A program made the translations under genes and the position numbers. Under the pieces are notes generated by a model. The model made no database searches, was not told the DNA's origin, and worked only from the letters and a program-made list of their open reading frames with translations. This document shows positions 22,932-24,202 of a stretch of 64,000 nucleotides of DNA, piece after piece; position 1 is the first letter of the stretch, and every line of letters starts with the position of its first letter. Source of the stretch: Nitrosopumilus sp. (GTDB lineage Archaea > Thermoproteota > Nitrososphaeria > Nitrososphaerales > Nitrosopumilaceae); NCBI RefSeq assembly GCF_025699255.1, contig NZ_JAILWA010000001.1:62001-126000 (forward strand). The letters are read 5' to 3'.

Positions 22932-23150
22932 TCATTGGACTTCAACCATTGTTTCAGTTCTTTCTACACCAGTAATTTTTTGGATTTGGTTTGCTACTTC
23001 TTTAATTTGTACTAATTCACTAACATCTATCACAGCAACGGCATCAAATTGTCCACTGGTAGGAAATGAATCAGAAACTGAAGGAATTTTTCTCAATCGG
23101 GCAGCGATTAGTTTTTTTGGAGATTTAACCAAAATTATTGCTCTTACCAT
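22932..23150 (-). CDS. Stand-alone Lrp/AsnC ligand-binding (RAM) domain
   Basis: 72 residues, the size of an isolated RAM domain: MVRAIILVKSPKKLIAARLR, GQFDAVAVIDVSELVQIKEV and a final strand RTETMVEVQ. It has no DNA-binding helix-turn-helix. Such proteins bind amino acids and oligomerise, alone or with full-length Lrp proteins. It overlaps the preceding RAM gene by 7 bases. Confidence 0.85.
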   Translation of the reverse strand: MVRAIILVKSPKKLIAARLRKIPSVSDSFPTSGQFDAVAVIDVSELVQIKEVANQIQKITGVERTETMVEVQ

Positions 23151-23419: not shown

Positions 23420-23698
23420 CTAATCAAACGCTTCTTGAGATCGTGCTTCTTCTAGATATGCACGTCGTTCTTCATTGACTTTTTCTTGATCAATTTCAAT
23501 ATCATCATCAACTATAACAATACCCATATCACCAGAGGGTTCATCCTTAATTTTTTTAGTTTTAGCTTTACTTTTAGCTTTTGTGGTTTTCTTAGTAGTT
23601 GCTTTAGCTTTAGTTTTCTTAGTAGTTGCTTTAGCTTTAGTTTTCTTAGTAGTTGCTTTAGCTTTAGTTTTCTTAGTAGTTGCTTTTTTTTCAGCCAT
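23420..23698 (-). CDS. Lys/Ala/Thr-rich repeat protein
   Basis: 92 residues. The first half is a tandem repeat of the 9-residue unit AKATTKKTK, resembling histone H1 or bacterial HU-tail sequences; the second half is acidic (GIVIVDDDIEIDQEKV) and ends in a short helix. A strongly basic tail joined to an acidic module suggests DNA or RNA binding; that is inference. It is followed by the two RAM-domain genes on the same strand. Confidence 0.7.
   Translation of the reverse strand: MAEKKATTKKTKAKATTKKTKAKATTKKTKAKATTKKTTKAKSKAKTKKIKDEPSGDMGIVIVDDDIEIDQEKVNEERRAYLEEARSQEAFD
23587..23687 (-). repeat. 27-base tandem repeat in the Lys-rich gene
   Basis: Three perfect copies of a 27-base unit (23587-23613, 23614-23640, 23641-23667) and a partial fourth to about 23687. 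On the coding strand each copy encodes nine residues of the AKATTKKTK repeat. Perfect identity of the copies at DNA level suggests recent expansion and likely length variation between strains. Confidence 0.9.
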
Positions 23699-23852
23699 GA
23701 ATCTCGAAAAACAAGAGGTGGGGTAGTTTTTAAAGATTATGCAGATATTATTTAGAATATCATATCAAAATATTATCGATCTACTAGAACACTTAAGTCA
23801 AGATTGAACTAAACACGGACTTTATCATTTAACGATCTGAAGTCTTAACAGT

Positions 23853-23860
23853 GGAGGTGA
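23853..23860 (+). promoter_or_regulatory. Strong Shine-Dalgarno GGAGGTGA
   Basis: GGAGGTGA matches the archaeal anti-Shine-Dalgarno at full length, far stronger than at other genes here. Six bases after it comes ATA at 23867, the first codon of an open frame running to 24202. No ATG, GTG or TTG lies in that frame between the stop at 23858-23860 and 24017. Confidence 0.75.
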
Positions 23861-23866
23861 AAAGAA

Positions 23867-24202
23867 ATAGCAACATTAGCAGATTACCAAATTACAGGAA
23901 ATAGTGCATCATTAGCAAAAATAGGAGATCAATCATTTACAATAACATTTGTAGAAGATTCTGATTATTCTCAAGGAGACATAGTCACAAAAGGAGTAAA
24001 AATAACCACAAAAGAAATGTTTGAAGTGGATGGAAATCAGATAAACAAATTTCATACAACTCGTGTGGCAATAGTAAATAAATTCAAAAATGAAAAACTA
24101 CGAGAAGACATTAATCAAAAACACGTTCCATTAGGACCTGTAAAATGCATCTCAGAAAAAACAACATCTGGAAAAAATTTCTTTAATTTGATAGATGCAT
24201 AG
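23867..24202 (+). CDS. 111-residue hypothetical protein with apparent AUA start
   Basis: The frame is open from an in-frame TGA at 23858-23860 to TAG 24200-24202. A start at the only ATG (24017) would discard about 50 residues of good protein-like sequence (LADYQITGNSASLAKIGDQS, TFVEDSDYSQGDIVTKGVKI) and would lack any ribosome site. The perfect Shine-Dalgarno at 23853-23860 points instead to ATA 23867. The product is small, beta-rich and acidic/basic mixed (TTRVAIVNKFKNEKLREDIN), without membrane span or signal peptide. Not recognised. The strong ribosome site and the hairpin after the stop suggest a well expressed single gene. Alternatives: a sequencing error at the start, or initiation at another non-standard codon. 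Confidence 0.65.
   Translation: MATLADYQITGNSASLAKIGDQSFTITFVEDSDYSQGDIVTKGVKITTKEMFEVDGNQINKFHTTRVAIVNKFKNEKLREDINQKHVPLGPVKCISEKTTSGKNFFNLIDA

Follow-up and report, generated by a model that had tools for sequence, protein, structure and literature searches.

Among the closest described systems is the gene infC of Escherichia coli, which encodes IF3 and reportedly starts with AUU; according to the 1987 reports by Butler and by Brombach, as cited in PMC9845219, replacing AUU by AUG reportedly abolishes its autocontrol. A second is gene 32 of phage T4, which encodes an autogenously controlled ssDNA-binding protein, gp32, and starts with AUG. Proteins that bind ssDNA are a class whose amount often needs limiting.

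For archaea, a review of translation initiation, as far as its available part goes, gives only AUG, GUG, and UUG as starts (PMC7531240). The literature searched revealed no archaeal gene that naturally starts with AUA; most subscription papers were outside the scope of that search, and absence remains unproven. Here we analyze a small gene, carried by ammonia-oxidising marine archaea, in a window of 64,000 nucleotides (the whole stretch of DNA examined) from the 1.65 Mb genome of a Nitrosopumilus sp., which appears to start with AUA behind a full Shine–Dalgarno (SD) sequence.

By analogy, the arrangement resembles infC with its AUU. Both genes have a natural non-NUG start that lies one base from AUG and is kept weak, although this weakness is inferred in the archaeal gene, and one of the features taken to define the infC type, a start other than AUG, GUG, or UUG conserved across species, is present here. 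However, infC is bacterial, uses AUU, and encodes a factor that takes part in start-codon checking during initiation, whereas the gene studied here is archaeal, uses ATA, and encodes a predicted OB-fold product of unknown role for which feedback has not been shown. The likeness to T4 gene 32 lies in a small protein of the ssDNA-binding type and in a weakly structured, sequence-constrained translation start; gene 32 differs in its AUG, no sequence relation between the two is established, and there are no binding or feedback data for the ATA gene. The predicted fold of the product also resembles PRD1 P12 and podovirus ssDNA-binding proteins, but the ATA gene is cellular, with a conserved position in the chromosome, flanked by a Lys-rich gene and tRNA-Phe.

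Organization of the locus

An earlier note on this DNA had read an SD sequence, GGAGGTGA, followed after six bases by ATA and a frame of 111 codons with its stop, and these coordinates proved exact (Table 1). Its statements that no ATG, GTG, or TTG lies in frame ahead of the ATG at 24017 (codon 51) and that a TGA within the SD bars any earlier start were likewise confirmed. Should the transcript begin about 25 bases downstream of the TATA-like TTTATC, which is an inference made without transcript data, the gene would have a very short leader bearing the SD. The predicted N-terminal tryptic peptide of the ATA-start frame (locus L008) is (M)ATLADYATVGDSVSLAK.

Table 1 Features of the ATA-start locus, in window coordinates
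Feature	Position	Strand	Basis or remark
SD sequence GGAGGTGA	23853-23860	+	Read from sequence; contains in-frame TGA
In-frame TGA within SD, shuts frame upstream	23858-23860	+	
ATA start codon	23867-23869	+	Same codon in 37 of 38 readable orthologues
Coding frame, 111 codons and TAG, read from ATA	23867-24202	+	Orthologues, structure model, fold matches
TAG stop of the ATA-start frame	24200-24202	+	
First seven codons, possible RNA-level element overlapping the start	23867-23887	+	Low synonymous change; neighbour genes as control
TATA-like TTTATC	23821-23826	+	TTTAT in the -60 to -25 stretch of 34 of 38 loci

The usual gene setting comprises a Lys-rich gene, tRNA-Phe, and a cobalamin adenosyltransferase-like gene, the last named from our own reading of its sequence. 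The divergent neighbour on the reverse strand (23420-23698) encodes Lys/Ala/Thr-rich tandem repeats (KATTKKTKA) that resemble a histone-H1-type tail, and its length differs among relatives.

Conservation of ATA and its SD sequence among orthologues

A profile search of 250 genomes of the family (Nitrosopumilaceae) gave matches in 45 at an E value of 0.001 or better, 38 of which carry a nearly full orthologue with a readable start. The other seven comprise a divergent copy (G217), a copy cut by a contig end (G188), a remnant (G202), and four genomes with a paralogue only (G143, G178, G193, and G212), the latter called from low scores and late match starts. One locus was dropped as identical to another (L001 to L002) and 11 as repeat genomes (L031-L037, L047, L049, L050, and L057), which left 39. 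The copy in G217 (L055; 43-44% identical, with GAA as the homologous codon, an in-frame TTG next, and no SD) was excluded from the 38; the starts in G188 and G202 were unreadable and were not counted; L030, with a broken frame, was also excluded from the 37-locus alignment of residues and codons. The gene may be undergoing loss in places: in G189 (L057/L030) the orthologue frame is broken, and in G202 (L135) a decayed remnant with internal stops is left.

The homologous start codon is ATA in 37 of the 38 orthologues and ATG in the remaining one (L054 of G183, 57% identical). An SD core is present in all 38, and a G[AG]GGTG[AG] core stands 5-6 bases before the codon in every one of the 37 ATA loci (six bases in 32, five in 5). 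Each of these genomes is different and represents its own species, so that neither an error nor some local accident can account for the conserved ATA. One ATA locus (L012 of G041) belongs to another genus, the only genus besides Nitrosopumilus in which the gene turned up in a draw of 400 genomes of the class from 82 genera, and both L012 and L051 retain ATA although they lie in a different gene context.

Residue 2 is small, as would be expected directly behind an initiator Met (Ala in 35 of the 37 aligned loci, Gly and Ser in one each), and residues 4-7 and 13-18 are conserved upstream of any canonical start common to the loci. The earlier note had proposed AUA initiation and held that an alignment of homologues would decide it; the alignment bears the proposal out, with conserved residues ahead of the internal ATG and ATA itself conserved behind an equally conserved SD. 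Similarity that begins only at 24017 would have spoken against the claim and was not seen in the orthologues, and a base error at 23867, which would also have undone it, is excluded because such an error cannot recur in 37 assemblies. Sequencing error or a pseudogene is virtually ruled out as an explanation: nothing at the window locus favors it, the remnant of G202 with its stops and the broken frame of G189 being elsewhere, and it is refuted by the same conserved codon in 37 loci with open frames and strongly conserved residues.

Canonical starts as alternatives

We considered whether translation might begin at a canonical codon instead, either at an internal TTG (codon 16) or ATG (codon 51) or at a GTG within the SD. 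In 21 of 38 loci, the earliest canonical codon is the TTG at codon 16, which speaks for an internal start, but in others it varies with the species, falling at codon 4, 9, 10, 26, 29, 44, 46, 48, 51, or 54. Three species (L010, L012, and L043) lack ATG, GTG, and TTG altogether, both throughout the frame and in the stretch from the upstream stop to ATA, and the residues ahead of codon 16 are conserved as protein. An in-frame canonical codon does lie just upstream in six of the 38 loci, as a GTG that forms part of the SD, at codon -3 (L011, L013, L014, L046, and L048), or an ATG at codon -2 (L026), and a start there could not be excluded for those six. However, as read by eye, the GTG is out of frame wherever the spacing is six bases and is followed by TAG in L010. 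Overall, we regard canonical initiation as very unlikely.

Even less credit can be given to recoding, in which ribosomes would initiate out of frame at the SD and then shift frame, or would translate a tiny upstream frame ending in the TAG of ATAG and reinitiate at AUA. Inspection by eye revealed, in L012 and L051 but in no other locus, a mini-frame behind the SD (ATG-AGA-TAG or ATG-AAA-TAG) whose stop falls within the ATAG at the start; the window gene lacks one, with no start among the codons before that TAG. With ATA in 37 of 38 orthologues and no canonical start in three species, sequencing error is ruled out and initiation at AUA is by far the likeliest reading, albeit one made without protein, ribosome, or transcript data.

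Constraint on the start codon and the first seven codons

On a 37-locus tree with 7.1 substitutions per site, the mean number of changes at a third codon position is 7.6, whereas the third base of ATA shows none among the 36 ATA loci. Of 17 sites at which the residue is invariant and the codon mostly ends in A, 15 show a G-ending form in some loci. The weak codon has been kept across the genus though a single A-to-G change gives ATG. The low rate of change extends beyond it: codons 1-7 have 1, 2, 3, 1, 0, 2, and 4 third-position changes, respectively, compared with an average of 8.1 over codons 11-111; synonymous change in this stretch is roughly one-fourth of the normal level. This seven-codon window is the lowest of 105, and none of 20,000 random draws was equally low. 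In four neighbour genes taken as a control, the first seven-codon window ranks 25 of 78, 9 of 66, 21 of 131, and 23 of 188.

As codons 2-7 are also slow (0-4 changes each), the constancy of ATA may come partly from local nucleotide constraint. It is therefore conceivable, if rather improbable in our judgment, that translation starts at AUA without selection for weakness, the strong SD making the codon near-neutral while the surrounding DNA or RNA of codons 1-7 is constrained by something else, such as an operator, an sRNA target, or an unstructured A-rich start. The uniformly low third-position change across this lowest-ranking window is what such a constraint would leave. A near-neutral start should, however, occasionally turn into ATG, GTG, or TTG, as happens in three neighbour genes; in the same loci, one neighbour starts with ATG in 23 and GTG in 6 (n = 29) and another with GTG in 17 and ATG in 2 (n = 19). 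Moreover, within the ATA clade, one-base shifts in spacing and changes in codons 2-4 are tolerated, but a change from ATA to ATG is not. Neighbour starts were projected without gaps, and that of the fourth neighbour was unresolved. Homologues of the small neighbour on the reverse strand (22932-23150) start with ATG in 20, TTG in 8, and CTG in 1 (n = 29), the CTG possibly being a further non-standard start.

The sequence of the first seven codons is no regulon motif, as it matches exactly only at its own gene, with five other sites at three mismatches (two for the reversed control). The 60-base start regions fold weakly (-2.4 to -8.6 kcal/mol), and no RNA helix shared among them was visible by eye.

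Predicted structure of the product

The AlphaFold model of the protein has a pLDDT of 88.3, with low values for residues 1-10, and contains strands at residues 24-36, 39-54, 57-64, 89-98, and 104-110. By our own reading of the strand order and the structural matches, this is a five-stranded OB fold, the feature by which we compared the model with phage-type ssDNA-binding proteins. The top match in BFVD, A0A8S5LW65 (E = 6e-4, TM = 0.66/0.73), carries the name SsDNA binding protein, as do others ranked after it. Among solved structures, the best match is PRD1 P12 (Z = 4.6, rmsd = 3.9, 91 aligned), which is weak by itself; most of the top matches are OB-fold nucleic-acid-binding proteins, all with modest scores (Z < 5). 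Sequence identity to A0A8S5LW65 and PRD1 P12 is 6-12%. Pfam gave no family match, NCBIfam a single sub-threshold one (E = 0.14), and PHROGs only matches of unknown function at E = 0.012 or worse. Neither the family searches in Pfam and NCBIfam nor the OB fold speaks for or against a part of the product in start-codon selection. No solved relative was found by sequence, the search returning only two chains (E = 0.2 and 0.81), nor were sequence relatives found in phage records or viral contigs. Judging from the model, the product is probably an OB-fold protein like the phage-type ssDNA-binding proteins, and nucleic-acid binding is inferred from this.

Paralogues of about 100 residues in Nitrosopumilus (L015-L019) are 33-38% identical, have core motifs in common with the ATA-start protein, and are without its first ten residues. 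Their start codon is ATG in all seven read, suggesting that AUA belongs to the branch of the ATA gene and not to the fold family.

Decoding and proposed role of the AUA start

ARAGORN typed 41 of 42 tRNA genes (L167 remained untyped), three with a CAU anticodon, one of which has an initiator-type arm (GGG-CTCATAA-CCC) by our own reading. Neither a tRNA with a UAU anticodon nor a special initiator tRNA was found among the 41 of 42 typed. With one initiator-type CAU and no UAU, the simplest decoding has the ordinary initiator read AUA despite a third-position C-A mismatch. In the available part of a study of archaeal initiation, the strong aEF1A start of P. abyssi reads GGAGGUGA-UUUAA-AUG, with an SD spacing that matches that of the ATA gene (PMC6237735). 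The same part recalls that aIF1 destabilised the complex on a non-AUG mRNA in an S. solfataricus system (PMC6237735).

We consider it probable that the gene is translated from AUA and that selection keeps this codon as a weak start for an OB-fold protein. The near-perfect SD 5-6 bases upstream would position the 30S subunit, and the ordinary initiator Met-tRNA (CAU) would read AUA with its third-position mismatch. Met would be inserted and then probably removed, as residue 2 is nearly always Ala. Strong ribosome docking on a poor codon may give a low output that depends on start-codon checking, for example by aIF1, and the weak AUA may hold a nucleic-acid-binding protein low or under control. 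The earlier note suggested that a full SD may offset the weak codon, which is plausible and agrees with the invariance of the SD, although expression data are lacking.

More tentatively, and with considerable doubt, we suggest an autogenous switch in which the OB-fold protein would cover the SD and the first seven codons of its own mRNA, and AUA would slow the ribosome so that it loses the race. Feedback on a weakly structured leader is possible and would agree with the slow first codons, but there are no feedback data. If true, the gene would combine a natural AUA start with feedback control and would provide a native target for tests of archaeal start-codon proofreading by aIF1. An AUA start kept across the genus, and the sole possible start in some species, would in any case offer a native substrate for how the archaeal ribosome and aIF1 handle a third-position mismatch. 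Annotation programs that accept only NUG starts would overlook or shorten genes of this kind and, in the present case, remove 50 of 111 residues.

SD–ATA combinations elsewhere in the genome

The pattern GGAGGTGA-N4..7-ATA has four matches in the genome, against none for a reversed control pattern, and the three besides the window gene sit within longer open frames. A looser pattern, GGAGGT-N5..9-ATA, has 36 matches versus 60 for its reversed control; 31 of the 36 were inspected, and these, apart from the window gene, were inside genes, too short, or ATAATG, with the true ATG immediately after. The window gene is the only credible SD–ATA start among the matches examined, and the conservation of ATA in 37 of 38 orthologues places it far beyond chance.

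A putative SD–ATT start before a ychF-like gene (L071; named from our own reading of the sequence) was rejected, since none of the 29 relatives read has the SD and the gene starts with TTG or ATG in them. Upstream of this GTPase gene, about 35 bases, ATTAAACGATTTCTGCAATACTAATAAGTAGAATT (L071:1508-1542, G000:C4), hardly differ among nearly all of the 30 Nitrosopumilus loci compared, whereas the bases preceding them vary; we read this stretch as a putative conserved promoter or regulatory element.
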